From NCBI GenBank assembly GCA_001899175.1, contig MKVH01000008.1:1-64000 (forward strand): DNA of 64,000 nucleotides, given 5' to 3'. Source of the DNA: Candidatus Kapaibacterium thiocyanatum. Lineage in GTDB: Bacteria; Bacteroidota; Ignavibacteria; Kapaibacteriales; Kapaibacteriaceae. Under the pieces are notes generated by a model. The model was not told where the DNA came from. It did not search any database and worked only from the letters and a program-made list of their open reading frames with translations. Positions 1 to 31,772 of the stretch are shown here, in pieces (position 1 is the first letter of the stretch; each line of letters opens with the position of its first letter). The position numbers were made by a program, and so were the translations under genes.

Positions 1-31
1 TCGAGTCCTGCTACCTTCACCAAATGTCTTC

Positions 32-121
32 ATGTCACCCGCACTCGCGGGGATGATCCGGCACTCTCTCAGCTTCTCAGGTTGCCTCAAGAATTTCACC
101 CGCACATGCGGGGATGGACCG
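32..121 (+). CRISPR. Decayed type I-E-like repeats (trailer of an array to the left)
   Basis: Two 29-nt units at 32-60 and 93-121 match the repeat of the large array at 5660 with 2-4 substitutions each (core ATGTCACCCGC, then GGGGATG). They are separated by exactly 32 nt, the spacer length of the main array. The 31 nt before the first unit would fit another spacer, so the array probably continues to the left. Orientation is the same as the main array, and decay at the right-hand end is what a leader-distal trailer looks like. Confidence 0.8.
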
Positions 122-244
122 CAATGGAGGTGGGGTGATTTGGTACTCAAATAATCCGGCATACCGGATTCCGGGTATATGGTATATAGATTGAATAGTT
201 ATATTCACACGGGGTTAGTTACATAGTATCTATAGAGGTGCGAC

Positions 245-1282
245 GTGTTCCGCCAAATACTCAGAGTAGTGCTGACATTGTCGTGTTTGAACCTACCATT
301 ACTTGCCCAGTGCGACTCGCTCCGGCAGTTCTATCCGCCGGGAACAAAAGTGCATCCAAGGACGCCGACGGGACGAGATACCACCGTCTCCCTTGACCCT
401 CGTATCTATGTCACGCAGTGGCATTTCGAGACGCAGTCCGACTCGACCATCACCCGATTCGTCTTCGACGACTTTCTATCCAACGGACATCGGGTATGGC
501 TCAATAATTGGTGTAGGGGGAAGACGTGGAACTGGAGTGACTCGCTTCAGGCATATACTCCAGAGGTCACAAATGCACAGCTTAGCTCCATCTCCCATAC
601 GGCATACATGCCACTTATCGGTGGAGACACGATAGGCTTCTACCGTCATGCGTACTGGTTGTGGAGGGGACCACAGAGCGGTTCTATCGCGAAATACACC
701 TCCGATGATGCAGCGTCCTATTCCGTCGAACTCGTGAAGCAGACGACGGGCCAGCGGATGGCTCTCCTCGATACCTTCAGGATCAGCCAGAGCGGAGCAT
801 CTACACCCTGTGTTTATACATGGTATCCTCTCGCCTCGAAGGTCAGATACATCATTCCCTCGAACATTACGGATACGACGTTTGCATGTATTCGGATTAA
901 CGTCTACACAAGCGGTGCAACCAACGATACGTATTCGAGGTCAGACAATTTCGGTCCAACCAACTCCCGCTACTTCATTGGCAATCCGTACTTCAACAAC
1001 TTCATGGCCGTAGTGAATGCCGAGAACGCATGTACAGCGTCGAGCAGTGGTTGTGGGATGGTAGTAACCAACGGTACGCCCGGCAGTGTCAATGCTGCCG
1101 TATCCTCCAACTCAATCACCGAGGTCAGGGCGTTCTCACAGAACGGATACATGGTAAACAGTGCCTCTGTCACAAGCTGGCCAAGCACACACGCACTGAC
1201 GACAGGGGCGGGTCTGTTCATCGTCTGTGGCCTCAATAGTTCCGGTACCGTCGTATGTACCAGTACCATGCTCGTTCCGTAG
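245..1282 (+). CDS. Secreted cassette protein A, copy 1 (T9SS-type tail)
   Basis: 345 aa starting at GTG 245. An N-terminal signal peptide ends in LLAQ, followed by the mature start CDSLRQFYPPG. The body is rich in Ser/Thr/Asn and aromatic residues with scattered cysteines (NWC, PCVY, SGCG, FIVCG). The last ~70 residues look like a T9SS sorting domain: a strand with AFSQNG, a GLFIVCG stretch and a terminal TSTMLVP. No catalytic motif was seen. It has three paralogues at 12934, 14757 and 16758 and is closest to the last of these. A B-type gene follows after 22 nt, so the two are probably co-transcribed. Unlike copies 2-4 it lacks the upstream palindrome, and its start is preceded by an AT-rich stretch. 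The function is unknown; an adhesin or surface-displayed binding protein is only a guess. Confidence 0.85.
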   Translation: MFRQILRVVLTLSCLNLPLLAQCDSLRQFYPPGTKVHPRTPTGRDTTVSLDPRIYVTQWHFETQSDSTITRFVFDDFLSNGHRVWLNNWCRGKTWNWSDSLQAYTPEVTNAQLSSISHTAYMPLIGGDTIGFYRHAYWLWRGPQSGSIAKYTSDDAASYSVELVKQTTGQRMALLDTFRISQSGASTPCVYTWYPLASKVRYIIPSNITDTTFACIRINVYTSGATNDTYSRSDNFGPTNSRYFIGNPYFNNFMAVVNAENACTASSSGCGMVVTNGTPGSVNAAVSSNSITEVRAFSQNGYMVNSASVTSWPSTHALTTGAGLFIVCGLNSSGTVVCTSTMLVP

Positions 1283-1304
1283 TACCACCATCCCACAGTA
1301 GACC

Positions 1305-1742
1305 ATGATTGCGTTGATGACTCCTAGCAGGCGTCTTGTTAGCCTATTCATCCTATTCAGTTGCACTATCACGGTGAGTACCGCACTCACGTCCAAACGA
1401 AAGCCCGGCGGCCAGAACGACAAGAATCCGTTGTGCGATCCGGATGCAGGTGAAAGAGTTGATGTCGTAGCGGGTCCAAGACAATGCTATTGCTACGAGG
1501 CCATGACTGGACACCCGACGTTTACCCCGTTCTATCCACCCGGAATCCTCGGTACACTGTTCCATTCCCAAGTAGCGGTTTCCTGTGATCCGGAATCAGA
1601 AGCCACGAACACGCCCTACGTCTGTACATTCCGTAACGACTGCATGACAGACTACGAACAGACGGTACCGGGATGGTTCTACTACTTCAACATGGACTTC
1701 CCGATCTACATGATAGAGGGTGGTCCGGGAAGTTGGCCGTAG
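1305..1742 (+). CDS. Secreted Cys-rich cassette protein B, copy 1
   Basis: 145 aa. A hydrophobic signal peptide ends near VSTALTSKRKPG. The mature part has six cysteines (LCDPDAG, QCYCYE, SCDP, VCTF, NDC) that could form three disulfides, and it ends in IEGGPGSWP. It is a close relative of the protein at 17819, and more distant broken relatives lie at 14016 and 15867. In all four places a B gene directly follows an A gene, which suggests that the two exported products work together. No known family was recognised and no enzyme motif is visible. Confidence 0.8.
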   Translation: MIALMTPSRRLVSLFILFSCTITVSTALTSKRKPGGQNDKNPLCDPDAGERVDVVAGPRQCYCYEAMTGHPTFTPFYPPGILGTLFHSQVAVSCDPESEATNTPYVCTFRNDCMTDYEQTVPGWFYYFNMDFPIYMIEGGPGSWP

Positions 1743-1809
1743 GTATGGGTGCCGTCACTCCCGAACCTACATATGATTGTCTCGAACTCAAACAAACAGG
1801 AATGGCATC

Positions 1810-2448
1810 ATGGCAATCGATTACGAGCGTCGAAAGAAGATCAACAAGATCATCTACTCTGTTATCGGAGGAATTATTCTAGTAACAGTCGTCGCGGTTG
1901 TAATTCTTAAGCAAAGGCAGAAGGAGAATTTTAAGGAATGGCAGGAAGAGTTCACGAGAAACTTGGAGAAACAGAGTGCAGAGTTCCACAGGAAGGAATT
2001 GGAGGAAGAACGAGCTAAGGCAATTCATGATTCTATGATGCTGCATAATCCGAAATACCGGGACAGCATTCATACGAAGGATGTTATTTCAAAGATTGAT
2101 ACTGCTAGTAAGTGGTTGTATTGTACTATCACGCCGAGTGACGGAAAGGGGCGATTTCGCTATGCCAAGATTCAGGTTTTCAATAGATCGCTAGTAGCGT
2201 TTGACAACGTAGTAGTTGAATATTCATACGAACGCGAGGTTCAGCCGGGTAAGGCTATTACTCATACGACTACGTTTGAGCGCATCAATCCCGGTGAAAG
2301 CAAGTATGTAGAAGAATCTGTAGGTCAGACACGTTATAATGCCCCGATTAATCTTGTGTCAAGTATTATCTCAGCGTCGGAGGATAATGTATCATACAAG
2401 AAGATAAGAAAGGATAGTTCGAAGTACTTCGAGGGCGAGAAAAGATAA
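1810..2448 (+). CDS. Membrane-anchored coiled-coil protein, unknown function
   Basis: 212 aa from ATG 1810, preceded by AGGAA. A short basic N-terminus (ERRKKINK) leads into one hydrophobic segment at about residues 14-35, then a charged Lys/Glu-rich helix (residues ~38-75, probably coiled coil). A C-terminal domain of roughly 110 residues follows, with beta-strand character (WLYCTITPSDGKG, VVVEYSYE). The topology suggests a single-pass inner-membrane protein with an outside domain. Base composition is AT-richer than the flanking cassettes and codon choice differs from the core genes, consistent with transfer. An upstream in-frame start at 1777 is possible. No family was recognised. Confidence 0.7.
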   Translation: MAIDYERRKKINKIIYSVIGGIILVTVVAVVILKQRQKENFKEWQEEFTRNLEKQSAEFHRKELEEERAKAIHDSMMLHNPKYRDSIHTKDVISKIDTASKWLYCTITPSDGKGRFRYAKIQVFNRSLVAFDNVVVEYSYEREVQPGKAITHTTTFERINPGESKYVEESVGQTRYNAPINLVSSIISASEDNVSYKKIRKDSSKYFEGEKR

Positions 2449-2546
2449 CGCAATTATTCCTTCCCCGCCCGGAGCCGAAGAAAGTCAAGAGACCGAGGAG
2501 GCGACCGTACCAGTAGCGCTCTACCAATGTTCACTTGAGGGTTAAA

Positions 2547-3053
2547 ATGGCAAGTCAACTGATTGCAAAACTATCTAGGCACTGGGTTTACTCAGAGGAG
2601 GAAATACTTGTATTGCACAAGCGATTTCAATGTACGGCAGTACCAATGGACAGTCCACTACTTCCATTCATGACTTGGGAGGATGCTCAACATACTTCCG
2701 AAGCCCTTGTTGAACTCAGAGAATACAGAGAAGCGACGTGGTGCAGGGCTTGTTGTCCGGTGCCTGTCCAACAGGTAAAGTGCATTGTTAGGCCACCGAG
2801 AAGTGGAATAACAGCCATTGGTATCTGGGGCGTGAAAGGGGGCACACCAATTCCGATTGATGACATCATTACCGCTATTGAGAACGCCGAGTATCGACTC
2901 GTTACCATCGTTGGTAATGAGGAAGAAGGTTTTGTCGTCGCTAATGTCCACATCATGGACGGAATGGAGCTTAGGACTGACCCGGACGCAAGAGAGGAGA
3001 ACAATCTCTTAAACGTTGGCACCTGTAACATAGTGGGACAGCGGCGACCGTAG
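2547..3053 (+). CDS. Hypothetical protein in low-GC island
   Basis: 168 aa from ATG 2547; an in-frame TTG 12 nt upstream is also possible. There is no signal peptide or membrane segment. Residues ~60-75 contain WCRACC, a Cys cluster that might bind metal, and a mid-section with GIWGVKGGTPIPIDDIITAI follows. The last 45 nt overlap the end of the convergent gene at 3009-3536, unusual for this otherwise loosely packed stretch, so one of the two ends may be longer or shorter in reality. No function can be assigned. Confidence 0.55.
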   Translation: MASQLIAKLSRHWVYSEEEILVLHKRFQCTAVPMDSPLLPFMTWEDAQHTSEALVELREYREATWCRACCPVPVQQVKCIVRPPRSGITAIGIWGVKGGTPIPIDDIITAIENAEYRLVTIVGNEEEGFVVANVHIMDGMELRTDPDAREENNLLNVGTCNIVGQRRP

Positions 3054-3536
3054 AGACAGAATGGCTTTGCTTGGTGGACACATACCTGTGTCTACTGCCC
3101 ATTGAAGGGCTTGTGAAGCACTGAACAGTTCTCTCCAGTGCTGTTCATTTCCCCAATTATTGGACATCGCTAAGTATAGGTCACGTATTTCGCCGTTAAT
3201 ACGGCTCAGTATTTCTTCGGTGGTCTCTTCACCCTCAACAAGTGTTTGAAGACTCTCGTTCGTGCTTTTCAAGTTCCACTCCCACTCGCCCCGTCCAGTC
3301 CCAGCAGGGACAATCAACCCCGGAACCTTGCTCTGGGTCCCATATGGTCCTGTGATCTCGCGACCGTTGACGGTCGCTATCCCACTCCATCCATTGCCTC
3401 GTGCGAAATCCACACGAAGCTGTACGTGAGCGTTACCCTTGTACTCCGGCTTCGCCCTGCGAGTGAGGGGTAACGTGACCTCTACAACCTTCTCCACAGG
3501 CAGGTTGCTCTCGACGAGGGATTGAAGGTTCTTCAT
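3009..3536 (-). CDS. Hypothetical protein in low-GC island
   Basis: 175 aa from ATG 3536 on the minus strand. It reads as a soluble protein: an N-terminal strand-rich part (HVQLRVDFARGNG, GIATVNGREITGPYG) and a C-terminal helical part (ETTEEILSRINGEIRDLY). Its 3' end overlaps the plus-strand gene by 45 nt. The start faces the long inverted repeat at 3604-3680 and, beyond it, the BRO-type gene at 3795, so the two genes diverge from a shared control region. No family was recognised. Confidence 0.55.
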   Translation of the reverse strand: MKNLQSLVESNLPVEKVVEVTLPLTRRAKPEYKGNAHVQLRVDFARGNGWSGIATVNGREITGPYGTQSKVPGLIVPAGTGRGEWEWNLKSTNESLQTLVEGEETTEEILSRINGEIRDLYLAMSNNWGNEQHWRELFSASQALQWAVDTGMCPPSKAILSLRSPLSHYVTGANV

Positions 3537-3603
3537 ACCAATAAGACGTCTGGCCGCTGAGATGCTCTCCCAGCGGCCAGATTGATTCCTGAGGTATCGT
3601 TAC

Positions 3604-3680
3604 CGTATCCGTGGTTTCTTAAGGGAATAATTCCGTTACGGAACGGAATTATTCCCTTGAGAAACCAAGAATAGGATACG
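3604..3680. repeat. Long near-perfect inverted repeat (hairpin/cruciform)
   Basis: Two 25-nt arms (3613-3637 and 3642-3666) are complementary with one mismatch around a 4-nt ACGG loop. A second 7-bp layer (CGTATCC at 3604-3610, GGATACG at 3674-3680) lies outside small unpaired gaps, and GGTAT/ATACC pairing continues further out. It sits between divergent genes, so it is not an ordinary terminator. It could be an operator, a cruciform, or the tip of a lost mobile element. Confidence 0.85.
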
Positions 3681-3794
3681 AAATACCTGAAAACAGGTAA
3701 GTGTCTCTACGAATTGAATCTCAATGATTTGCTAGAGAAGTTTGGGGGCCACATTATATAGAAATGGCTACGTTCAAATGTTCAGGGCCCTGTT

Positions 3795-4559
3795 GTGCAG
3801 CAGCAAATTTTCAAGTATCAAGACGAGAATCATTTCTCGGACGTGAGAACCGTTGAAATTGATGGTGAAATATGGTTTGTAGCTAGAGATGTTGCGACAT
3901 TGCTTGGTTATACCACGCCTGCCAAAGCTGTTGCAGATCACTGCCGAGAGAAAGGTATCAAAAAGAACTACATGATGGAGACCAGTAGTGGAGTTCAGGG
4001 GTTTACTCTAATCAATGAGCCAAATGTATACCGCCTGATCTCTCGTTCAAAGCTGCCTTCCGCTGAAAAGTTCGAGGCTTGGGTTTTTGAAGAGGTCATA
4101 CCGCAGATCAGAAAACAAGGCTTCTACGGAAAGATTGACCGTACCGCTTTACCGAATTTCATCTCTAGGTACAAAGACAATTACCACAAGCTCGACCACA
4201 ACTACTTTTCAGTAATAAGTGAAATGTATGCTCGACTCTACATCGCACTTGAAAAGGTTGGGTATAGTATACCTGATAAAGGGGTGGGCGGTAAACAGAT
4301 GATGCCGGACATAAGCGTTGGAAGAGGCTTCGCATCTTTCTTAAAGAAGCAGAATTCTGAGTTTTATAACCAGCATCGAACGTATTGGCACTCATTTCCA
4401 GATGGCAGACCCGACGTAGAAGCTAACATGTACCACATTGACGCCTTGCCAATCTTTATCCGGTACATACATGAAAAATGGATTCCGGAAAACGCGCATG
4501 AATATTTCAAGCAACGCGATCCACTGGCCCTTGACTACTTGCCTAAGCTGCTGAACTAA
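3795..4559 (+). CDS. BRO-N family phage-type antirepressor
   Basis: 254 aa from GTG 3795. Residues ~1-110 match the BRO N-terminal DNA-binding domain: FKYQDENHFSDVRTVEIDGE, WFVARDVATLLGY, LISRSKLPSAEKFEAWVFEE and VIPQIRKQGFY are its typical blocks. The remaining ~140 residues form a second domain (SVISEMYARLYIALEKVGY, PDISVGRGF, YFKQRDPLALDYLPKLL) that I have seen attached to BRO-N in Bacteroidota but cannot name with certainty. BRO proteins are usually phage or mobile-element regulators. No phage structural genes are nearby, so this is an isolated relic or a domesticated regulator. A 10-bp palindrome (CAGGGCCCTG, 3783-3792) lies right before the start codon. Confidence 0.85.
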   Translation: MQQQIFKYQDENHFSDVRTVEIDGEIWFVARDVATLLGYTTPAKAVADHCREKGIKKNYMMETSSGVQGFTLINEPNVYRLISRSKLPSAEKFEAWVFEEVIPQIRKQGFYGKIDRTALPNFISRYKDNYHKLDHNYFSVISEMYARLYIALEKVGYSIPDKGVGGKQMMPDISVGRGFASFLKKQNSEFYNQHRTYWHSFPDGRPDVEANMYHIDALPIFIRYIHEKWIPENAHEYFKQRDPLALDYLPKLLN

Positions 4560-4579
4560 AACAGGTTATATCTCTTATA

Positions 4580-4613
4580 GGGGGGGGGGGGTGACGATTC
4601 GTCACCCCCCCCC
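4580..4613. terminator. Bidirectional hairpin terminator with long G/C runs
   Basis: A run of 12 G, then TGACG, a 3-nt turn, CGTCA and 9 C form one strong stem between the convergent genes ending at 4559 and 4625. The homopolymer is unusual and is a likely slippage or sequencing-error site. Confidence 0.8.
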
Positions 4614-4624
4614 TAATTTGACTT

Positions 4625-4903
4625 TCACTGGCTATTACCCTCCACCATTGCGGCCACTTCACGTAGCAAATCCCACGGCTCCATCTCCAGCTTTTTGGCC
4701 AACGCCACGAACATCGGCATGTAAACCTTCTGTTTTCCACGCTCCAACTTCGAAATCTGGGACTGGTTCACGTCATCGGATTCCAAGCTCTCCTGACTGA
4801 GTCCCAGTTCTTCTCTCCTCTCCCTTATAATCAGGGCTAGGGCAAGTTCGAAACTGAGTTTACCTCCTTCCGGAACCTTCAATTCTGAGAGCTTTCGTGG
4901 CAT
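4625..4903 (-). CDS. Small XRE/Cro-type helix-turn-helix regulator
   Basis: 92 aa from ATG 4903 (minus). Residues ~17-80 form a complete HTH_3 domain: LALALIIRERREELGLSQES, then the recognition part VNQSQISKLERGKQKVYMPM and the closing helix FVALAKKLEMEPWDLL. No partner toxin is next to it. It is transcribed away from the OB-fold membrane gene at 5001, and a perfect 20-bp palindrome lies 32 bp before its start, the classic layout of a self-repressing regulator. It may also control the divergent gene. Confidence 0.85.
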   Translation of the reverse strand: MPRKLSELKVPEGGKLSFELALALIIRERREELGLSQESLESDDVNQSQISKLERGKQKVYMPMFVALAKKLEMEPWDLLREVAAMVEGNSQ

Positions 4904-4934
4904 GAAAGCAAGCTACAGGGGTGTTTTACTCATG

Positions 4935-4954
4935 ATTAGTTGAATTCAACTAAT
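4935..4954. promoter_or_regulatory. Perfect 20-bp palindrome, likely XRE operator
   Basis: ATTAGTTGAATTCAACTAAT is self-complementary over all 20 bases. It lies between the divergent starts at 4903 (-) and 5001 (+), where a dimeric HTH repressor would block both promoters. Confidence 0.7.
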
Positions 4955-5000
4955 TGGCTATATTCGTTCCCTACTAACGTGTTGTTCAATGGAGGATGTA

Positions 5001-5477
5001 ATGAGCCAAGAGGCAGAGAAGAAACCCATCTACAAAAAATGGTGGTTTTGGGTAGGGGCGGTCGTCGTAATCGGAATAATCGGAAGTATGGCTGGTGGAA
5101 AGAAGGAAACGGCCAGCGCAGAGTCACCAGCGGCCATACCTTCCGCAGCAACGACGGAGACGCCGAAGGAAGAACCAGTACTGGCTGTTACGGCCACAGC
5201 CTTGTACGAGGCTTACGATGCCAATGAGGTCAGCGCAGATGCCCAATACAAGGGTAAGAAGCTGGAAGTCTCAGGTAAGGTAAAGGACGTAGAGAAAACC
5301 TTCGGAATGATCTACGTAAATCTTGAAGGTGACGATATGTTCGGACAAGTTACCTGCAAGCTGGAAAACGAAACGGAAGCAGCGTCCATGACCAAAGGTC
5401 AGAAGATCGTACTGCTTGGCGTCGGCGATGGGAAGGCTGGATTCCCACGTGTTACGGACTGTCGGATCAAGAAATAG
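5001..5477 (+). CDS. Membrane-anchored OB-fold (tRNA_anti-like) protein
   Basis: 158 aa. The start at ATG 5001 is set by GGAGG six bases upstream; the in-frame ATG at 4989 contains that ribosome site and is less likely. A Lys-rich N-terminus leads into one transmembrane helix (WWFWVGAVVVIGIIGSMAGG). An Ala/Ser/Pro/Glu linker (residues ~35-60) follows, and then a domain of ~90 residues starting ALYEAYDANEVSADAQYKGK with EVSGKV, IYVNLEG and VTCKLEN. This pattern is the tRNA_anti-like OB fold found in many exported bacterial proteins of unknown role. It faces the XRE gene across the palindrome and is followed by a clear terminator. Confidence 0.8.
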   Translation: MSQEAEKKPIYKKWWFWVGAVVVIGIIGSMAGGKKETASAESPAAIPSAATTETPKEEPVLAVTATALYEAYDANEVSADAQYKGKKLEVSGKVKDVEKTFGMIYVNLEGDDMFGQVTCKLENETEAASMTKGQKIVLLGVGDGKAGFPRVTDCRIKK

Positions 5478-5500
5478 TATTGGCTATAGAATCATTACCG

Positions 5501-5659: not shown

Positions 5660-8600
5660 ATGTCACCCGCACACGCGGGGATGAACCGTACAAAAACATG
5701 GGGGCGGACAAAGGAAATACATGTCACCCGCACACGCGGGGATGAACCGCCGTTTCTCTCGCCTTCAACTGCCTGAGATAGATGTCACCCGCACACGCGG
5801 GGATGAACCGATGGGTACGGACGAGATCAGAATGTCGTATCCATGTCACCCGCACACGCGGGGATGAACCGCCAAGCGTACGAGGTGCTACAACTGCGAA
5901 CATATGTCACCCGCACACGCGGGGATGAACCTCAATGGTGAAAGACAAGATCATTGCAGTGGACATGTCACCCGCACACGCGGGGATGAACCGCCACATA
6001 TCCATGTTGGAAAGAGGTCAACGCGATGTCACCCGCACACGCGGGGATGAACCGACCTCCCATTCGCGGCGGCTGACATCCAGCAGATGTCACCCGCACA
6101 CGCGGGGATGAACCGTATCCATCGGCTGTGGGTTGATTAGGCGGAGAATGTCACCCGCACACGCGGGGATGAACCGATACCGCACCACGCCTCCACCGTT
6201 TTGTTGGCATGTCACCCGCACACGCGGGGATGAACCGTATTGGAGGCCGTCCCATTCAACGCATTGATAATGTCACCCGCACACGCGGGGATGAACCGTC
6301 CGAATGGATTGCATCCGCGCGGGAATTCTAATGTCACCCGCACACGCGGGGATGAACCGAAGTCGGAGAAACAAAGTAAATCCGCTTACGAATGTCACCC
6401 GCACACGCGGGGATGAACCGCCAGAGCGCGCGGGGAGAGGGAGTATGACTGAATGTCACCCGCACACGCGGGGATGAACCGGACCTCGGCGTCTACATGG
6501 GATACCGGCACCCATGTCACCCGCACACGCGGGGATGAACCGGCATGGACCATTGGCAACCTGCTGTTAACCTAATGTCACCCGCACACGCGGGGATGAA
6601 CCGATATACTGCGATCCAGTCACGCCCGACGCGCGATGTCACCCGCACACGCGGGGATGAACCGGCGCAGACAATCTGTGCGCGTGTTTTGATTCTATGT
6701 CACCCGCACACGCGGGGATGAACCGCTGTCGGCGGACGATGCTCTGGCAGCAGGTATATGTCACCCGCACACGCGGGGATGAACCGTTCACGCCATTGCA
6801 GTTCCAGAGAACACCAGTATGTCACCCGCACACGCGGGGATGAACCGTTTGCCGCCATTGCCTCCGCGTCCACAGGCGAATGTCACCCGCACACGCGGGG
6901 ATGAACCGGCAACAACCGACATCGGAGGAGTAGGTCAGGAATGTCACCCGCACACGCGGGGATGAACCGGCCACTGGCAAGTCGCTCTCTGACATGGGCA
7001 AATGTCACCCGCACACGCGGGGATGAACCGATGCAGAGCCTCCAATGCCTGCACCTGTTTCGATGTCACCCGCACACGCGGGGATGAACCGCCGAGCAAT
7101 CGCAGGAAACACAACAACAGTCGATGTCACCCGCACACGCGGGGATGAACCGGCCCACGGCTTCGTCCTCGATGCATTCTCTGCATGTCACCCGCACACG
7201 CGGGGATGAACCGACGTCCGGTACCGTTGCCAGAGGCACGACGTACATGTCACCCGCACACGCGGGGATGAACCGACGTTACCGATATCTGTGGCGATAC
7301 CTGCTGCATGTCACCCGCACACGCGGGGATGAACCGTCGCAAATGGTGTAGCGTTCTTTGCTACTGCTATATCACCCGCACACGCGGGGATGAACCGTTT
7401 TTCAGATTCTACTAGTTCTACATTACTTGATATCACCCGCACACGCGGGGATGAACCGTCGAGGAGCGGGCGTTCGCGTTTCGTCGTGGCATATCACCCG
7501 CACACGCGGGGATGAACCGGACCTACCCTTCGCAGCGGCTGACATTCAGCAATATCACCCGCACACGCGGGGATGAACCGACAGGTGCATGGCGATGAAT
7601 GCAGTTAAACCCATATCACCCGCACACGCGGGGATGAACCGGCCCACGGCTTCGTCCTCGATGCATTCTCTGCATATCACCCGCACACGCGGGGATGAAC
7701 CGTCTTCGATCCCATTTCCCTATACGCTGCGCCCATATCACCCGCACACGCGGGGATGAACCGCGATTCCTCGCCATCATGCTCGACACGCTTGAATATC
7801 ACCCGCACACGCGGGGATGAACCGATCGCAAACGCATCGTGGTGCAACGAACGGCAATATCACCCGCACACGCGGGGATGAACCGTTTTGCGCTGGCCTG
7901 ATATTCGCGATGCCGATATATCACCCGCACACGCGGGGATGAACCGTCGATTACAACGTTTTCATGCCTGATGCGGAGATATCACCCGCACACGCGGGGA
8001 TGAACCGAGAAACGAGAGGATGCCGAGCGACATGATACCATATCACCCGCACACGCGGGGATGAACCGGGGCATCGGCGCTGCCGCCGGTTGTCCCATGA
8101 ATATCACCCGCACACGCGGGGATGAACCGGTCCTATACGGCGACGCCGACGCCGTCCGTGGATGTCACCCGCACACGCGGGGATGAACCGGCCCCCGCGC
8201 CTGCACCGGATTCTAAACAAACATGTCACCCGCACACGCGGGGATGAACCGCAATGGATAATTGTTGTCTGTAATACGCGGCTATGTCACCCGCACACGC
8301 GGGGATGAACCGTGACGATAGGTATTATATAAAACCTCCCGCACATGTCACCCGCACACGCGGGGATGAACCGACCGGTGACTATTCCATATCAAATACT
8401 ACGGGATGTCACCCGCACACGCGGGGATGAACCGGAGTTCTATTGGCACGATGTACTATTCAGGGCATGTCACCCGCACACGCGGGGATGAACCGCGTGC
8501 ACGGTTGTTGCGGGCGGCGACCCCCTCATGTCACCCGCACACGCGGGGATGAACCGCAACGTGCATGGACGGTGGCGGCGCATGACGCATATCACCCGCA

Positions 8601-9775
8601 CACGCGGGGATGAACCGGCGCCGGGCGTGGCCTATATCGATACGACGACATATCACCCGCACACGCGGGGATGAACCGACTCCGTACGCGGAACCAACCT
8701 ATCAATCACTATATCACCCGCACACGCGGGGATGAACCGCGGTGTTCGGCCACTGTTCCAGTGTCTGAAGAATATCACCCGCACACGCGGGGATGAACCG
8801 TTTAAATCACCCTTCAATGGATCAGAACCAGTATATCACCCGCACACGCGGGGATGAACCGTATATGGACGAAGGCGATGCAGCTGCACTCCAATATCAC
8901 CCGCACACGCGGGGATGAACCGCGGACCCAACGCCGCCGCTCACGGCCTCGGAGATGTCACCCGCACACGCGGGGATGAACCGGTCTCTATCAATATGAT
9001 GAGGACACCAAACGGATGTCACCCGCACACGCGGGGATGAACCGTATCCTCCGTCATCGACGCGTGTATCATGGATATGTCACCCGCACACGCGGGGATG
9101 AACCGACGTCGCATACGATCTGGTGATTATCGGCTGGATGTCACCCGCACACGCGGGGATGAACCGACCAGGGCGTCAGGTTCAAAAAACAACACTATAT
9201 GTCACCCGCACACGCGGGGATGAACCGGGCAGTACGTGCGCGGCACGGTCATCGAGGGTATGTCACCCGCACACGCGGGGATGAACCGAGGGAGAGAATG
9301 GATATTACGATCGCTACCGTATATCACCCGCACACGCGGGGATGAACCGCATGCTGCCGCGTTGCAGCAGTACGACGCGCAATGTCACCCGCACACGCGG
9401 GGATGAACCGTGGCATAGTGGTTTTTTCGTTGCCATATCTAGATGTCACCCGCACACGCGGGGATGAACCGGTCATAGGCCCACCGGGATATTCGTGATT
9501 CCGATGTCACCCGCACGCGGGGATGAACCGGAACTCGATATCAAAATCACCGAGGAGAAAAAATGTCACCCGCACACGCGGGGATGAACCGGCAACACGT
9601 CAAGGTCAAGGGGCCGATGGGAAAATGTCACCCGCACACGCGGGGATGAACCGAGAATCATCATCAACGGAGCGCCTGGTGCGTGATGTCACCCGCACAC
9701 GCGGGGATGAACCGGGCAAGTCTCAGTGGGACGATACAGAACAGATATGTCACCCGCACACGCGGGGATGAAGAG
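5660..9775 (+). CRISPR. Type I-E-like CRISPR array, 68 repeats and 67 spacers
   Basis: A 29-nt repeat begins ATGTCACCCGC, carries a CGCGGGGAT block and ends AACCG; the inner part can form the usual short hairpin. Starts recur every 61 nt. I followed the unit starts from 5660 to 9747 and get 68 repeats. Spacers are 32 nt except two of 33 nt (7214-7246 and 9592-9624). Repeat 64 (9504-9530) has lost 2 nt. Repeat 5 ends in T instead of G. The last unit loses its final CCG, which marks the trailer. Base 3 of the repeat is G in most units but A in three blocks (units 29-41, 49-54 and 61). Spacers 25 and 33 are identical. No cas gene is in the window. Confidence 0.98.
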
Positions 9776-20525: not shown

Positions 20526-21344
20526 TTATTGAATCAGGGCTCTGACCGATACACCGATCTTCTCGGCCAGTTCGTCGGTCGACAGGTCGTTCGCATCAAG
20601 ACCGAACGGATCTTCTATTTCCTCGGCCACGAGTTCGAGACTGGCCAGAGCATAGAAGATGAACACGGTGAGAAGAATGGTCGAGTATCCGTACGACTCG
20701 ACGAAGGCATACGGCAACGTGGCAGTATAGAAGAAGATGAACTTCTTGATGAAGATGTTGTAGGAGTAGGGGATCGGTGTGGAACGAATCCGCTCGCACC
20801 CGCCGGTGATGTCGGTCAGCGCCGTCACTTCCGGATTGAGGATGATGAGCTGATCGCCCGTGATGAGCTTCCTGCTGTAGGCTTCGTGCAGCAGACGTAT
20901 GATGCCCGAGGCGATGGTATTCGGCCTGTGTTCGCCGACGCTGTTGCCACGCAGGTGTTCCTTCAGTTCGATCGGAAACTGCGTCAGCAGTCTCCGCATG
21001 TCACCGCGAAGGTGGACATACTGGGGATCGATCATCACCGACCACTTCATGGCGATGTTCCTGCTCGTATTGACGAGGCTCCCCCAGAGTTTGCGGCCTT
21101 CCCACCACCGGTCATAGGCGCTGTTCGTACGGAAGACGAGAAGCAGGGAGATCACGATACCGAGCAGACTGTGGATCGCCGTCGTGTTGAGCGTATGGAA
21201 ATGCAGGTATTCGAGTTCGACGACGGAGAAGATCGCAGTGTAGAAGCTGACGGCCAGCATGGCGGGAAGCAGCTTCCTTGCCGTGTCGGCCGGGTGGAAC
21301 TGGAAGATCAGCCGTAGCCACTGCTTGGGATTGTAGATGATCAT
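20526..21344 (-). CDS. Bestrophin-like (RFP-TM) anion channel protein
   Basis: 272 aa from ATG 21344. Family marks: an N-terminal Trp-rich start (NPKQWLRLIFQFHPADTARK), the block VISLLLVFRTNSAYDRWWEG close to RKLWGSLVNTSRN, and near the end PFGLDANDLSTDELAEKI. Four membrane segments are visible. Bacterial bestrophin homologues form pentameric channels in the inner membrane; the ion carried here is unknown. Probably co-transcribed with the DUF486 gene. Confidence 0.9.
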   Translation of the reverse strand: MIIYNPKQWLRLIFQFHPADTARKLLPAMLAVSFYTAIFSVVELEYLHFHTLNTTAIHSLLGIVISLLLVFRTNSAYDRWWEGRKLWGSLVNTSRNIAMKWSVMIDPQYVHLRGDMRRLLTQFPIELKEHLRGNSVGEHRPNTIASGIIRLLHEAYSRKLITGDQLIILNPEVTALTDITGGCERIRSTPIPYSYNIFIKKFIFFYTATLPYAFVESYGYSTILLTVFIFYALASLELVAEEIEDPFGLDANDLSTDELAEKIGVSVRALIQ

Positions 21345-21875
21345 GGGGATTACTGCGGTAGTAGGCGGCCAAAATAACGGATGTCCGTTTCATACGACAT
21401 GGATCGTTCTCGTCATCCACCGTCTTTCCACGATCCTGAGGATAGCCAACCTGCGTTCCACGAACGGGATAGGAGGCCGACACGATGCAAGGGGCTTCTC
21501 TCCACGATCTTGTTCACGACGGTTGTCAATTGATCGGGAAAAGTTCTGGAAACAGGACGGTAATGCACAGGTGAACATCCGGCCAAGGAAAAGTTATGGG
21601 AGGTTGTCGGAAGTCCTCACGGGGAAACCCGAGATTATCCACTTGTTCACACCCTCCGTGTGGATTGCTCTAATTGCCTTTGGTTCATGCCGGTTAGGTC
21701 AGCTCCGAGGTCGAAATCGACGAGTCATCCACACTATCCACAGGCTTATTACTCTTACTGTTCTTTACCCTCTCCAAAAGAACAATACACAGAGTGGTCG
21801 AGTGTGGAAGACGCTGCCGGTTGTGCAGTTGGACGATTGTTTCGAAATTGCATCGTTGATGTAAACGACGTCAAC
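21345..21875. other. Gene-free stretch with DnaA-box-like repeats: candidate oriC
   Basis: About 530 bases before the serS terminator carry no credible gene. On the plus strand it has one-mismatch DnaA boxes TAATGCACA (about 21561), TTATCCACT (21635-21643), TTGTTCACA (21643-21651), TCATCCACA (21725-21733) and CTATCCACA (21734-21742). The last two are directly abutting. They are followed by GGC and then TTA-TTA-CTC-TTA-CTG, resembling the DnaA-box/GC-patch/DnaA-trio order of bacterial unwinding elements. Two parS sites lie 7 kb away. There is no dnaA gene in the window and no perfect DnaA box. Confidence 0.55.
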
Positions 21876-21914
21876 GAAAAACGGGCCGCTCCTCATCGAA
21901 GGAACGGCCCGTTT
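21876..21914 (-). terminator. Terminator after serS
   Basis: On the minus strand AACGGGCCG and CGGCCCGTT pair around a ~16-base loop and are followed by TTTTCG, 32 bases past the stop. Confidence 0.8.
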
Positions 21915-21945
21915 CACGTTTCGACAGGAGCGGCAATCGGGTCGG

Positions 21946-23208
21946 TCAGATTTCCGAGAATCCGGTATACGGACGCAGGACTTCGGGAATGACGATCCGG
22001 CCATCTTCCGTCTGATACTGTTCGAGCAATGCCACCATGATGCGCGACGTCGCCAGACCGCTGCCGTTGAGCGTATGGACGTAGTCGGGCTTCGATGCCG
22101 ACGTGGCCTTGTACCGGATGTTGGCACGACGTGCCTGGAAGGATTCGAAGTTCGTGCAGCTCGATACTTCGAGCCACTTCTGCTCGTACGGCGACCATAC
22201 TTCCAGATCGTAGGTCTTGGCACCGCCGAACGTCATGTCTCCCGTGCAGAGAAGAAGCACCCTGTAGGTGAAGCCGAGAGCGCGGAGGATGTATTCGACG
22301 TTGCCGACGAGGGCTTCGAGTTCGTCGTAGGACGAGTCGGGCGTCACGAACTTCACCAGTTCGACCTTGTTGAACTGATGCACGCGCAGGAATCCGCGCG
22401 TGTCCTTGCCATAGCTGCCGGCTTCCCTGCGGAAACAGGCACTGTAGCCCGCGAAGCGTACGGGAAGGTCTTCCCCGGCCAGGACGTCGTCACGATGGAA
22501 GTTCGTGATCGGTACCTCGGCCGTCGGAATGAGGTAGAGCTCGTCCTTCGAGATGTGATACATGTCCTCTTCACTCTTCGGAAGCTGACCGGTTCCTCTC
22601 AACGACGCCGTATTGGCGACGAAGGGAGGCATGATTTCCCTGTAGCCGTGGACGGCCGTATTCGTATCGAGGAAGAAGTTGATCAGGGCACGTTCCAGAC
22701 GCGCACCCTTTCCGACGTAGAAGCCGAATCCCGTGCCGGTGACCTTGGCTCCGCGTTCGAAGTCGAGGATTCCGAGCTGGCGCGACAATTCGATGTGATC
22801 CTTCCGCCAAGCGCGTTCCAGCGGCTGACCTTCGCGGCGTACTTCGACGTTGTCGTCTGCCGTCTTTCCGATGGGTACGGAAGGATCGGCCATGTTCGGA
22901 ATGCGGAGCATGATGCCGTCGATGCGCTCTTCCGTGGACCGCAGATCCTCGTCGAGGTCCTTGATACGGACATTGACGACCCGCATCTCCTCGATCTGCT
23001 GCGTGGCGTCGCCACCGCTCTTCTTCAGGACGGCCACTTCTTCCGAGACCTTGTTGCGCCGGGACTTCAGTTCTTCCACTTCCTGGATGATCGTCCGGCG
23101 GCGGATATCGAGTTCGAGAAGGCCGTCGATATCGCTGTTATCGTTCTTGTTGACGCAGTTCCGACGGACGTCGTCTGCATGTTCGCGTATGAACTTCAGG
23201 TCGAGCAT
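21946..23208 (-). CDS. serS: Seryl-tRNA synthetase
   Basis: 420 aa from ATG 23208, giving the standard start MLDLKFIREHADDVRRN; the frame is open further upstream but that part has no family match. An N-terminal tRNA-binding coiled coil (residues ~30-110, VEELKSRRNKVSEEVAVLKK) is followed by the class II catalytic core: motif 2 with FRREAGSYGKDTRG, and motif 3 with NGSGLATSRIMVALLEQYQ. It charges tRNA-Ser with serine in the cytosol. Length is normal. Confidence 0.97.
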   Translation of the reverse strand: MLDLKFIREHADDVRRNCVNKNDNSDIDGLLELDIRRRTIIQEVEELKSRRNKVSEEVAVLKKSGGDATQQIEEMRVVNVRIKDLDEDLRSTEERIDGIMLRIPNMADPSVPIGKTADDNVEVRREGQPLERAWRKDHIELSRQLGILDFERGAKVTGTGFGFYVGKGARLERALINFFLDTNTAVHGYREIMPPFVANTASLRGTGQLPKSEEDMYHISKDELYLIPTAEVPITNFHRDDVLAGEDLPVRFAGYSACFRREAGSYGKDTRGFLRVHQFNKVELVKFVTPDSSYDELEALVGNVEYILRALGFTYRVLLLCTGDMTFGGAKTYDLEVWSPYEQKWLEVSSCTNFESFQARRANIRYKATSASKPDYVHTLNGSGLATSRIMVALLEQYQTEDGRIVIPEVLRPYTGFSEI

Positions 23209-23264
23209 GAGTGGATTCGTATTGGAATGGATGAGTCCGCAAGATAACACCTGCAGAAAGCGCG

Positions 23265-24020
23265 TCAGTTCCGCTTCTTCCGGGCCAGGTCCGTGGCCTT
23301 GGCCACTTTCACGAAGGGATACCACGTCGAGAGCACGGACCAGACCAGGCCCTGCCATCCGTTCAGGCAGTGTCCACCGATCAGGTAGTGTTTCACGAAG
23401 TACAGCGGCAGCATCAGTGCCGTGGCGGCTACGGACCGCCGTTTGCCCCGTTCCACGAGGGCAGTGGCGGCCAAACTCGTATACCTGTTGAATTTCTCGA
23501 GATAGTGGTCGATGGAACGATAGCTGTAATGAAGCATCTCATGTTTCATCCGGCCCGTCGACCCTGTGGTGATGAGGTGTTCGTGGACGGTATCGAGACT
23601 GAATTCGGCCGAATCCTTCCGGAAAAGGCGTAGCGGGTAATCGCACGAGCCCCGTCCATGAGCGAAGACCTTGCCCAGAAAGACGAATCTGCGGGGAAGA
23701 GAATAGACCAGGTGGCGTGGTTCGTCGTCCAGGGTGGTACATATCTCATTGGCCAGGTCGGCGGACAGCACTTCGTCGGCATCGAGGGAGAGAATCCAGG
23801 GATACCGTGCCAGGGAACAGGCATACCGTTTCTGGGCACCGTAGCCGGTGAAATTGTGGTGTTCCACCCTGCATCCGGATGAGCGGGCCAGGTCGACGGT
23901 TCGATCGGTGCTTCCGGAGTCCACGACGATGATTTCGGAGCACCACCGAAGCGCTTCGAGGCATTCGAGGATGGATTCTTCCTCGTTCAGGGTGATGATG
24001 ACGGCGCTGATCTGGGCCAT
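23265..24020 (-). CDS. Family 2 glycosyltransferase (lipopolysaccharide-core type)
   Basis: 251 aa from ATG 24020. GT-A fold: ISAVIITLNEEESILECLEA at the N-terminus, EIIVVDSGSTDRTVDLA, and the metal-binding DAD motif in WILSLDADEVLS. The C-terminal part (HYSYRSIDHYLEKFNRYTSL and a hydrophobic YFVKHYLIGGHCL) matches the WaaE/KdtX-like branch that adds sugars to lipopolysaccharide core. No transmembrane anchor except the weak C-terminal segment. It lies upstream of serS on the same strand but ~55 bp apart; the functions are unrelated. Confidence 0.88.
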   Translation of the reverse strand: MAQISAVIITLNEEESILECLEALRWCSEIIVVDSGSTDRTVDLARSSGCRVEHHNFTGYGAQKRYACSLARYPWILSLDADEVLSADLANEICTTLDDEPRHLVYSLPRRFVFLGKVFAHGRGSCDYPLRLFRKDSAEFSLDTVHEHLITTGSTGRMKHEMLHYSYRSIDHYLEKFNRYTSLAATALVERGKRRSVAATALMLPLYFVKHYLIGGHCLNGWQGLVWSVLSTWYPFVKVAKATDLARKKRN

Positions 24021-26967: not shown

Positions 26968-27000
26968 AAAAAGCGCTATCAATCCGATAGCGCTTTTTTT
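26968..27000. terminator. Bidirectional terminator
   Basis: AAAAAGCGCTATC / GATAGCGCTTTTTTT with a 5-nt loop, shared by the convergent genes ending at 26942 and 26999. Confidence 0.9.
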
Positions 27001-28858
27001 ATGTCCTGAGGTAGAGGGAAAGGACGGAAACGTCGGCGGCGCTCACGCCGGGAATTCTCGATGCCTGGCCGAGCGATCCCGGGCGTATACGGGAGAGCTT
27101 TTCCCGTGCTTCCTTCGAAAGCGATGAAACGGCATCGTAGACGAAGTCGTCGGGAATGCGCTTCCGTTCGTTGTCTGCGAAGCGTTCCACTTCACGGAGC
27201 TGCTTCTGGATGTAGCCATCGTAGCGGATGGACGTTTCCGCACCATGGATGGCACCAGGATGTTCGGCCATCAGCGAGGGCATGGGATGATGACCGGCTT
27301 CGAGGAGATCCGCGAGGGGAACCGTCGGACGTCGCGCGAGGGTTCCCACCGTCGTCGTTTCCATGACGGGATCTTCGCCGAAGCGTTCCAGGAGCGGGTT
27401 GGCGTCGGCCGGGCCGATCTTCGACGCACCGAGCCAGTCCATTATTCCCGACTGGATTTCATGGGTCCGTTGCCACCGTTCACGGACGTCGTCCGTGATG
27501 AGGCCCAGACGATGGCCATGGGGGAGCAGACGATCGTAGACGCTGTCGATTCTCAGCAATAGCCTGTATTCAGCCAACGACGTGAAGATCCGGTAGGGCT
27601 CTTCCGTATTCTTGTTCACGAGGTCGTCGATCAGCACACCTATGTATGCTTCCGACCTTCCAGGGGTGAAGGGGGCTTCGCCCTTGATCTTCAGGGCCGC
27701 ATTGATACCTGCGATCAGGCCCTGGCTTGCAGCTTCCTCATAACCCGACGTTCCGTTGATCTGTCCTGCGAAGAAGAGTCCGTCGATGGCCTTGGTTTCC
27801 AGCGTGAACTTCAACTGATAGGGGAAGAAGAAGTCATATTCCACGGCATAGCCGTACTTCAGGATGGAGGCATGTTCCAGTCCGGGGATCGTCCTGAGTC
27901 CCGTGTCCTGTACGTCAGCAGGGAGGCTCGTCGAGAAGCCGTTGACGTAGACGGAGTCGGCCGTCAGTCCTTCGGGTTCGAGGACGATGATATGGGAGTC
28001 CTTATCGGCGAAGCGGGCGATCTTGTCCTCGATGGAAGGGCAGTACCGGGGCCCGGCCCCGTGAATCAGCCCGCTGAACATCGGCGATCTGTCGAAGCCC
28101 GTACGCAGGATATCGTGTGTGTGGACGGATGTCGTGCTGGCGAAGCAGGCCAGGCGATTCGTTACCGTTCGTGTACGGATGGAGAAGGGTTGGGGACGTT
28201 CGTCTCCGTTATGGGGAACCAGGAGGCTATAGTCGATGGAATCCTTATGGATTCTGGGGGGTGTTCCGGTCTTCAGACGTCCTTTCTCCAGACCGTACGA
28301 AGCCAGAAGGTCGGAAATACGCTCTGCGGGACGTTCTCCGACACGCCCTCCCTTCGTGGTCTGCATTCCCGTATACATCACGGCATTCAGGAAGGTACCG
28401 GAGCAGAGTATGACGGCTTTGGCCGTAATGACCTCGTCCTTCGTCGTTCTGATGCCTTGCACCACATCGTTCTTCACGATGATTTCCGATACCGTCTCGG
28501 AGATAATGTCGAGATTCGGCGTGGAGCGGACCAGATTCTGCGCGAAGAGGGGATAGAGGTCCTTGTCGTTCTGTGATCGGGGAGACCAGACAGCGGGGCC
28601 CTTCGACGTATTCAGCATCTTGAACTGGAGTCCGCTCGCATCCGCGATCCGGGGCATGACGCCTCCGAGGGCGTCTATTTCCTTTGCGAGGTGCCCCTTG
28701 GCACTCCCTCCGATCGAAGGGTTGCAGGAAAGGCGGCCTATGGTGTGAAAGTCCATGCTTACCAGACCTACCCGCAAGCCCATTCGGGCTGCAGCACAGG
28801 AGGCCTCGATGCCGGCATGGCCGCCACCAATGACGATAATATCGAATCGATGATCCAT
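26999..28858 (-). CDS. mnmG: tRNA uridine 5-carboxymethylaminomethyl modification enzyme MnmG
   Basis: 619 aa. ATG 28858 gives the family start [18 protein letters not shown] with the FAD-binding GxGxxG-type loop. Further upstream the frame runs through two parS sites and is not coding. Family blocks: [55 protein letters not shown], and the C-terminal [19 protein letters not shown] region that contacts MnmE and tRNA. With MnmE it installs the cmnm5 group on wobble U34 of several tRNAs. It follows mnmE and a GNAT gene on the same strand. Confidence 0.97.
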
Positions 28859-28867
28859 AGAATCCGA

Positions 28868-28883
28868 TGTTCCACGTGGAACA
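28868..28883. promoter_or_regulatory. parS centromere site 1
   Basis: TGTTCCACGTGGAACA, a perfect 16-bp palindrome that equals a known bacterial parS (ParB-binding) variant, 9 bp before the mnmG start. Confidence 0.85.
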
Positions 28884-28925
28884 ATAATGGATGTTCGTAG
28901 AATACCGAAAGCAGGTATACCGGAA

Positions 28926-28941
28926 TGTTCCACGTGGAACA
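28926..28941. promoter_or_regulatory. parS centromere site 2
   Basis: A second exact copy of TGTTCCACGTGGAACA, 58 bp from the first. Two identical copies in 75 bp exclude chance. ParB would spread from here to organise the origin region. Confidence 0.85.
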
Positions 28942-29019
28942 TTCGCGTACCAGGCGATTGGCTCCATCCGGTAGGGTGCATCCCTCGAACCTTCTTGCGG
29001 ATATCCCTGACGAGCAGGC

Positions 29020-29553: not shown

Positions 29554-30924
29554 CTACTTTCCGATGCAAAAACGTGAGAATACTGTGTCGAGAAGGTCCG
29601 GATTCCAGGTCTCTCCGGAAATATCGCCAAGGAGTCTGATGGCGGCACGGACGTCGACGGAGATGAGTTCATTGGAGCGTCCGGCCGTGAGGCTTTCGAG
29701 AGCGCTGGAGAGATGTTGGACGATCTGGCGGAGCAGACCTGCCTGACGGGCATTGACGAGAATGTCGGTGATGTGTTCCGAGCTCTTCCGGACGTATCCG
29801 GCCAGAACTGCCTTCAGTTCGGAAATACCTGCACCGGTGCGGGCAGAACACAGGATGTCCGTCGGGCGGCTGTCGGAAAGAGTCCGGTCGAAGAGATCGG
29901 CCTTGTTCTGGACGACGAGACATGGAATATGACCGAAGCGCTGCCGGATATCGGCAAGAAGGTCATCGGAATGGTCCAGTCCGGCCGATCCGTCATTGAC
30001 GATCAGGACGAGGTTGCTGCGTTCGATGAGGGAGGATGTGAGCACGATACCCTGCAGTTCGATGCTGTCGGCCGTATCACGCAGTCCGGCAGTGTCGTAG
30101 AGGTGGATCGTACAGCCTTCGACGACGATACTTTCCTCGAGATAGTCGCGGGTCGTTCCGGGAATATCGCTGACGATGGCCCGGTCGCGATCCAGCAGGG
30201 CATTGAACAGCGAGCTTTTGCCGGCATTGGGATAGCCCACGACGGCGCAGTAGAATCCCGATCTCAGGATTTCCGCCGAAGCAGCCGTATCGGCCAGCTC
30301 GGCAGTGAAGCGCCGGATCTCTTCCAGGGTTCCTGCCAGTTTCCGTTTGTCGACGAACTCGACGTCTTCCTCCGAAAAATCGAGCTCGAGTTCCATCAGG
30401 CCCGCTACGTCGAGAAGCTGCTGACGCAGTCCGGCGAGACGCCTGGTGAAGCCACCCGCAAGTTGTCGGGCGGCTGTCTGGGCCCCGGCCTTCGATTCGG
30501 AGTGGATGATATCCGCCACGGCCTCTACCTGCGTGAGATCGAGCTTTCCGTTCAGAAAGGCCCTGCGTGTGAACTCGCCCGGCTCGGCCATGCGTACTCC
30601 TGCGTCCACGAGCGACGAGACGATCTGGCGCGTGACCTGATGCCCGCCATGACAACCTATCTCGACGACATCTTCACCCGTATAGGAATGAGGTGCACGG
30701 AAGACCGAGCAGGTGACGCTGTCGATGCGTTGGCCATGGGCCTGCCACCACCCGTAGTGGATGGTATGGGCCGGAACGTCCCGCAACGTAGCTCCGGAAA
30801 AAAGACGGTCGCAGACGTCGAAGGTCGCAGGACCGGAGACGCGCACCACGGCAAGACCGGCGATCCCGGGTGGCGTCGCCAGAGCGCATATGGTGTCGTG
30901 GATGGAATCCTGCATCATGGACAT
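29554..30924 (-). CDS. mnmE: tRNA modification GTPase MnmE
   Basis: 456 aa from ATG 30924 (ATGs at 30918 and 30915 are also possible; longer frames do not match the family). An N-terminal folate-binding domain (DTICALATPPGIAGLAVVRV, RRAFLNGKLDLTQVEAVADI), a helical domain, and an inserted Ras-like G domain: P-loop GYPNAGKSSLFN, DIPGTTRDYLEE, DTAGLRDT, NKAD. The protein ends FCIGK, with the catalytic C(I/L/V)GK cysteine intact. It partners MnmG in U34 modification. Confidence 0.97.
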   Translation of the reverse strand: MSMMQDSIHDTICALATPPGIAGLAVVRVSGPATFDVCDRLFSGATLRDVPAHTIHYGWWQAHGQRIDSVTCSVFRAPHSYTGEDVVEIGCHGGHQVTRQIVSSLVDAGVRMAEPGEFTRRAFLNGKLDLTQVEAVADIIHSESKAGAQTAARQLAGGFTRRLAGLRQQLLDVAGLMELELDFSEEDVEFVDKRKLAGTLEEIRRFTAELADTAASAEILRSGFYCAVVGYPNAGKSSLFNALLDRDRAIVSDIPGTTRDYLEESIVVEGCTIHLYDTAGLRDTADSIELQGIVLTSSLIERSNLVLIVNDGSAGLDHSDDLLADIRQRFGHIPCLVVQNKADLFDRTLSDSRPTDILCSARTGAGISELKAVLAGYVRKSSEHITDILVNARQAGLLRQIVQHLSSALESLTAGRSNELISVDVRAAIRLLGDISGETWNPDLLDTVFSRFCIGK

Positions 30925-31019
30925 GCAAAATACAATGCTTCTGGTTCGATATTTGCTATGATGCCGGAAGGCCGTAGTATTGTCCGCAACGGAAATCGTA
31001 ATGAAATTTATTATCCACG

Positions 31020-31772
31020 ATGACGGTATCGTCGATGGTCGGACCGATTGAGTTTCATCTGCCGAGTGTGAGTTCCACGAACGACTACGCTCGGGAGCTT
31101 CTCGGTTCCTATCCGTTCGTCTACGTGAGTGCCCAGCACCAGACGGCAGGCAGGGGACGTAACGGTCGGACGTGGCATGGCGATTTCGGAACCAACGTCT
31201 ACTGTTCCTTCGGTATCCGGCATGCCGACTCACCGTCGACGGAAGATGCGGCATCGTACATGGCGCGTGGTGCCCTGGCCGCGCTCGACGTCCTGCGGAC
31301 TCTGGCCCCGGGAACAGTCTTCCGTTTGAAGTATCCTAACGACATCCAGGTTCGCACCGAACAGGGGTGGGCCAAGATTGCCGGAGTCCTCGTGGAACAT
31401 GAGTATCACGGAACGCGCTGCGTCACGACGACGGTCGGTATAGGGGTAAATGTCGGTCAGCGAACGTTTCCGGATACTATCGGCCAGCCTTGTTCGTCGT
31501 TAGTCCTTCTTGGAGTCTCGGTTGATTTGCCGGTATTTCTCTCCGATCTTCGTGATCGGTTTACGCAGGCCCGTTCGCGCCCATGGTTCGAGATACACGA
31601 GGTATGGGTGCGGGAACTGGATGTTCTGGGGAAGCCAGCCAGGATCGCAGGTATGCACGAATCATGGACGATGCATCGTGTCCTGCAGGATGGTCGTTTG
31701 ATAGTACGTCAGGATGTTACACAGCAAGAACGGACCGTCACCGATGGCGACACTATACGATACGACGATTGA
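31020..31772 (+). CDS. birA: Biotin-[acetyl-CoA-carboxylase] ligase (no DNA-binding domain)
   Basis: 250 aa from ATG 31020 (a second ATG lies at 31035). The biotin-ligase core is complete: LPSVSSTNDYARELLG, the adenylate loop HQTAGRGRNGRTWHGDFGTN, RLKYPNDIQV, GVLVEHEYHG and TTVGIGVNVGQ. It lacks the N-terminal HTH of E. coli BirA, so it is a mono-functional enzyme that attaches biotin to carboxyl carrier protein and does not repress biotin genes. A one-mismatch DnaA box (TTATCCACG) ends at its start codon. It diverges from mnmE and is followed directly by coaX. Confidence 0.94.
   Translation: MTVSSMVGPIEFHLPSVSSTNDYARELLGSYPFVYVSAQHQTAGRGRNGRTWHGDFGTNVYCSFGIRHADSPSTEDAASYMARGALAALDVLRTLAPGTVFRLKYPNDIQVRTEQGWAKIAGVLVEHEYHGTRCVTTTVGIGVNVGQRTFPDTIGQPCSSLVLLGVSVDLPVFLSDLRDRFTQARSRPWFEIHEVWVRELDVLGKPARIAGMHESWTMHRVLQDGRLIVRQDVTQQERTVTDGDTIRYDD

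Follow-up and report, generated by a model that had tools for sequence, protein, structure and literature searches.

Results

The intergenic region between serS and a bestrophin-like gene

The window, the 64,000-nucleotide stretch of Candidatus Kapaibacterium thiocyanatum DNA that was analyzed, contains a gap (positions 21345–21945) that is flanked by a bestrophin-like gene (20526–21344, minus strand) and serS (21946–23358, minus strand). No recognizable gene lies between the start of the bestrophin-like gene (21344) and the end of serS (21946), and the spurious open reading frames in this gap, including one of 175 amino acids (21337–21864), have no Pfam match, in agreement with an earlier reading of this DNA from its letters (the sequence-only reading), which had described a gene-free stretch here. 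The best named relative of this serS is ZLKRG33 (Candidatus Kapaibacterium), and the next neighbors are labeled Chlorobiota/Ignavibacteria. A GC-rich inverted repeat just past serS (21873–21920), obtained in a repeat search, is a probable serS terminator, although it was absent from the output of a consensus terminator scan. The earlier reading had also placed mnmE, mnmG, and two parS sites nearby, and all are present: mnmG occupies positions 26999–28981 and mnmE 29554–31254, and a motif search located the parS sites at 28868–28883 (TGTTCCACGTGGAACA) and 28926–28941, both inside mnmG.

Elsewhere in the window, positions 5666–9772 hold a CRISPR array in which the repeat core CCCGCACACGCGGGGATGAA is present 67 times, spaced by 61–62 bp except for one 120-bp interval; this repeat reads like type I-E. 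Positions 1–5500 form a contig end of lower GC content (0.47–0.51) with a BRO-N domain gene (3795–4559) and DUF3892 and tRNA_anti-like genes, and are possibly a mobile or prophage region.

DnaA boxes in the gap

When positions 21345–21875 were scanned for DnaA boxes, three sites with one mismatch to TTATCCACA were found, all on the plus strand (21635, 21725, and 21734), together with two-mismatch plus-strand sites at 21413, 21561, and 21643 and three more candidates on the minus strand. The sequence-only reading had counted five one-mismatch boxes, which is incorrect, the remainder having two or more mismatches. Its tandem abutting boxes are real, box 1 (TCATCCACA, 21725–21733) being followed directly by box 2 (CTATCCACA, 21734–21742), each with one mismatch and on the plus strand. 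A weaker upstream pair (TTATCCACT/TTGTTCACA, 21635–21651, plus strand) does start exactly 90 bp earlier, at 21635, as that reading had it, but its members overlap by one base instead of abutting, and the second one, TTGTTCACA, has two mismatches. On the minus strand, the scan gave a weak inverted DnaA-like box, TCTTCCACA, with two mismatches (21803–21811). There is no perfect DnaA box in the serS-bestrophin gap. Three imperfect 15-mers ending in TTCCACGA or CTCCACGA that emerged from a repeat search (starts 21419, 21449, and 21493, spanning 21419–21507, plus strand) may be weak DnaA boxes like those of the GTTTCCACG type in relatives.

Over the whole window, the number of one-mismatch boxes is at chance (8 found versus 9.0 expected). 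An abutting one-mismatch pair was found once in a 334-kb sample of the organism's own genome versus 0.0025 expected (0.025 for the whole genome); it is the abutting arrangement, and not the number of one-mismatch boxes, that departs from chance. The published rule for a BUS box pair allows up to 2 and up to 4 mismatches and a gap of up to 3 bp (PMC8287927), and boxes 1 and 2 have 1 and 1 mismatches and a gap of 0. The gene-free stretch carries the DnaA-box cluster that is looked for in an oriC, in the form of three one-mismatch boxes and weaker ones, none perfect, in a conserved arrangement.

The sequence that follows the tandem boxes

Box 2 is followed on the plus strand by a GC patch (GGC, 21743–21745) and then by seven DnaA-trio-like triplets (TTA TTA CTC TTA CTG TTC TTT, 21746–21766) that were identified in a triplet scan and coincide with a family-wide period-3 signal, so that the GGC patch and period-3 triplets of the sequence-only reading hold. 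All seven triplets have T in the middle, and on the bottom strand (3′-AAT AAT GAG AAT GAC AAG AAA-5′) A is always in the middle and G or A is first. A run of at least seven triplets with a middle T, starting 0–4 bp from a random position, has a frequency of 0.00044. Under the BUS rule for trios, three or more NAN trios are needed no farther than 16 bp from the first located box; in the window, seven begin 3 bp after box 2, which is 12 bp after box 1. Comparison with relatives further defines a pyrimidine-rich tract after the trios (21758–21775) and a purine-rich tract, AAAAGAACAATACACAGAG (21776–21794), both on the plus strand, the latter in the part of the gap with the lowest GC content (0.40 at 21740–21799).

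Conservation of the element beside serS

Every genome of the GTDB family with a locatable serS, 21 in all, has the same organization just past the serS 3′ end: a box, a second box 9 bp on, a GC patch, a period-3 tract, and a pyrimidine-to-purine switch. In two fragmented genomes, serS was missing. Alignment positions T15, C17, A18, and C19 of box 2 are invariant in the 21 genomes, and the first box is poor in three of them (G002, G004, and G005). The spacer between box 2 and the trios is mostly 3–4 bp in relatives. Family-wide, AT steps recur after box 2 at spacings of 3, 6, and 9 (z 6.2, 5.0, and 3.3, respectively) and not at spacings of 2, 4, 5, or 7. The published trio consensus is 3′-GAT-5′. 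The window triplets are near-canonical; most relatives have ATC-type repeats (bottom strand 3′-TAG/GTA-5′) without a 3′-GA-5′ dinucleotide within the repeat, and several fall short of three NAN trios in the canonical frame, as the strict rule demands. At the DNA level, the gap matched in one relative only, over 45 bp at the bestrophin end, so the comparison across relatives rests on architecture.

Since a first model of the element (R1) was partly circular, a second one (R2) was built from 19 relatives without the organism's own genus (G000, the genome of the window, and G001, a sister species, were left out). In the 3.27-Mb genome of the window, R2 has a single match at E ≤ 5, at positions 21727–21783 of contig C8 (E = 4e-5). 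The sister species likewise has a single match at E ≤ 5 (C9:103871, E = 5.6e-4), again beside serS.

A compacted version of the element, with a cluster of perfect boxes and two core boxes 8 bp apart, lies beside serS in G027, which belongs to another family; in the named genomes of other families, the element is not next to serS. The use of serS as a position marker is thus a feature of the Kapaibacterium-like family plus G027. In G031, from another family of the order, a DnaA-box cluster (L045, 540–752) lies ∼750–960 bp from the serS 3′ end and is perhaps the origin of that genome.

The pyrimidine-to-purine switch is sharp in the window (21758–21794) and occurs at the same place in 21 relatives, with a conservation score of 0.82 versus 0.31 ± 0.03 at control positions. 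A conserved hairpin across the junction, which had looked plausible by eye, was rejected and does not account for the switch, as its pairing (141) equals that of shuffles that keep the purine/pyrimidine pattern (142.2 ± 3.1). The conserved switch would fit an extension of the reading of this gap as an origin, in which a mirror-image second BUS beyond the trios loads a second helicase. Weak inverted boxes do better than shuffles (summed mismatches of 54 versus 63.8 ± 3.1; 2/1000), and two relatives (G013 and G008) are symmetric by eye. However, when a matrix of the left-half tandem boxes is applied to the right halves, their score does not exceed that of shuffles (reached by 103 of 300), and the right-side period-3 signal is weak (z 1.4), so we regard a second BUS as improbable.

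GC skew and parS sites

GC skew was read from sampled stretches of the genomes. The organism's own contig (C8) starts with 20 kb of near-zero or negative skew, after which the skew is mostly positive up to 174 kb. Because this genome is in 28 contigs and only 21.6 kb lie to the left of the site, just one flank of the flip is well covered and the minimum is not bracketed. In the closed genome of a relative (G005, 2.84 Mb), sampled skew is mostly negative from 0.15 to 1.46 Mb and mostly positive from 1.48 to 2.72 Mb, apart from a single stretch at 1.95 Mb that disagrees; the local minimum is noisy. The switch coincides with serS and the box pair at 1.474 Mb, and the opposite switch lies near 0–0.15 Mb, as expected of a terminus. 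The skew of G027 is consistent with an origin at the element beside serS, and no clear flip was seen in the stretches read from the sister species. The skew minimum that marks an oriC is represented by the flip at serS in the closed relative and by the one-sided turn of C8 at ∼20 kb, which is followed by mostly positive skew for 150 kb; the sequence-only reading had named a skew switch at ∼21.6 kb as support for its candidate.

The parS motif GTTNCACGTGNAAC has two sites in the whole genome of the organism, both in mnmG and 7 kb from the element. The distance is 3 kb in G005, 2 and 4 kb in G001, and 30 kb in G027, so that parS is found 2–30 kb from the element in three relatives.

The dnaA locus and other candidate sites

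The dnaA gene is at ∼248 kb of contig C3, apart from the proposed oriC. The true origin could in principle be elsewhere, either beside this gene or at positions 244133–244153 of contig C2 (L009), with the serS-side gap acting only as a DnaA-binding regulatory or titration site. In favor of the former position is a single perfect DnaA box that directly precedes dnaA (C3:246785–246793) and suggests autoregulation. In the stretches read, however, the surroundings of dnaA have no box cluster, mostly positive skew, and no flip, so that the counter-scenario of the sequence-only reading, a better oriC with perfect boxes beside dnaA, was not borne out in these stretches. In the closed genome of G005, moreover, dnaA is 150 kb from the skew flip and serS is at the flip. 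The C2 site, which is flanked by lipB and a tRNA gene, has two perfect DnaA boxes 12 bp apart, but it lacks a sustained skew switch (V) in the stretches read. Of the other 22 genomes of the family, just one has such a close pair of perfect boxes (G014, C89:3820–3846, on a contig other than that of serS). The C2 pair may be a site of DnaA titration or of regulation. Taken together, these results make an origin at either position very unlikely. Hardly credible is a DnaA-controlled promoter region of the bestrophin-like gene with no origin, as the gap is upstream of that gene but the element keeps its place at the serS 3′ end throughout the family, the single promoter-like match is near the shuffle average, and skew, parS, and trios would be left unexplained.

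Discussion

Based on the GC skew, the comparison with the dnaA locus, the layout kept in 21 of 21 genomes, and the unique match of model R2, we conclude that the intergenic region at 21345–21945, proposed from the gene layout and the organization kept in the family, is very probably the chromosome oriC and has a BUS-type core, in support of the candidate oriC of the sequence-only reading. The position of this element, its conservation and uniqueness, the skew in the closed relative, and the proximity of parS were obtained by computation. We infer DnaA binding, unwinding, helicase loading, and segregation at this gap, the steps up to helicase loading by analogy with the B. subtilis BUS (PMC8287927, PMC10721633). 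DnaA made at its distant locus would bind the abutting boxes (21725–21742) as duplex, and a DnaA oligomer would extend from them along the period-3 tract (21746–21766) on its bottom strand, capturing bases. This would open the AT-rich segment that contains the pyrimidine-to-purine switch, to about 21795, and the helicase would be loaded on the exposed strands. Accumulation of DnaA may be aided by the weaker upstream boxes (the 21635–21651 pair and the TTCCACGA repeats), and new origins would be segregated by ParB through the parS sites 7 kb away.

In Escherichia coli, mnmG (gidA) lies in the neighborhood of oriC, and the proposed origin is similar both in this respect and in its location away from dnaA. 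The E. coli oriC has been named as separated from dnaA, and E. coli scored weakly for a BUS (PMC8287927), whereas the serS-side gap has a clear BUS and serS as its immediate neighbor.

The BUS of the Bacillus subtilis oriC and its bacterial relatives was described by Pelliciari et al. 2021 (PMC8287927). The window shares with B. subtilis the tandem boxes, the short GC patch, and bottom-strand triplets with a middle A (seven in the window), and it differs in that oriC is unlinked from dnaA and has no perfect box. A conserved pyrimidine-to-purine switch follows the triplets, and most relatives differ further in having repeats of the ATC type instead of 3′-GAT. In B. subtilis, the DnaD recognition element, opposite the DnaA-trios, consists of TnnT motifs that DnaD reads (PMC10201434). 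The serS-side gap resembles it in that its unwinding region also carries sequence information, on the opposite strand to the trios, but shows a strand-composition switch alone.

The DnaA proteins of G000, G001, and G005 were aligned to B. subtilis chain 8btg. In all three proteins, contacts E183, I190, and I193 are kept and three of the six contacts checked are replaced (N187M, R202T, and E228M/Q); N196 is kept in G000 and G005. The DnaA of G027 also departs, with T, N, and M by motif position. None of the trio-capturing DnaA residues (N187, I190, I193, R202, and E228) is universally conserved, although their properties generally are (PMC10721633). The change of the DnaA reader and that of the trio sequence may be linked, as judged from a correlation in one clade, but the co-change is incomplete, since G000 and G001 have changed residues and yet near-canonical trios. 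It is possible, though doubtful, that the base-capture code has been re-tuned, such that DnaA lost the N187, R202, and E228 contacts that read 3′-GAT, most origins shifted to ATC-type repeats, and the conserved pyrimidine-to-purine switch may direct a second helicase. With its paired change in trios and DnaA contacts, this family is a natural experiment on how closely the BUS code has to fit the protein that reads it.

For an uncultured bacterial family, these results give an origin with good support, one that searches next to dnaA would miss. Its position allows growth rates to be inferred from coverage (peak-to-trough ratio) in metagenome assemblies of this family.
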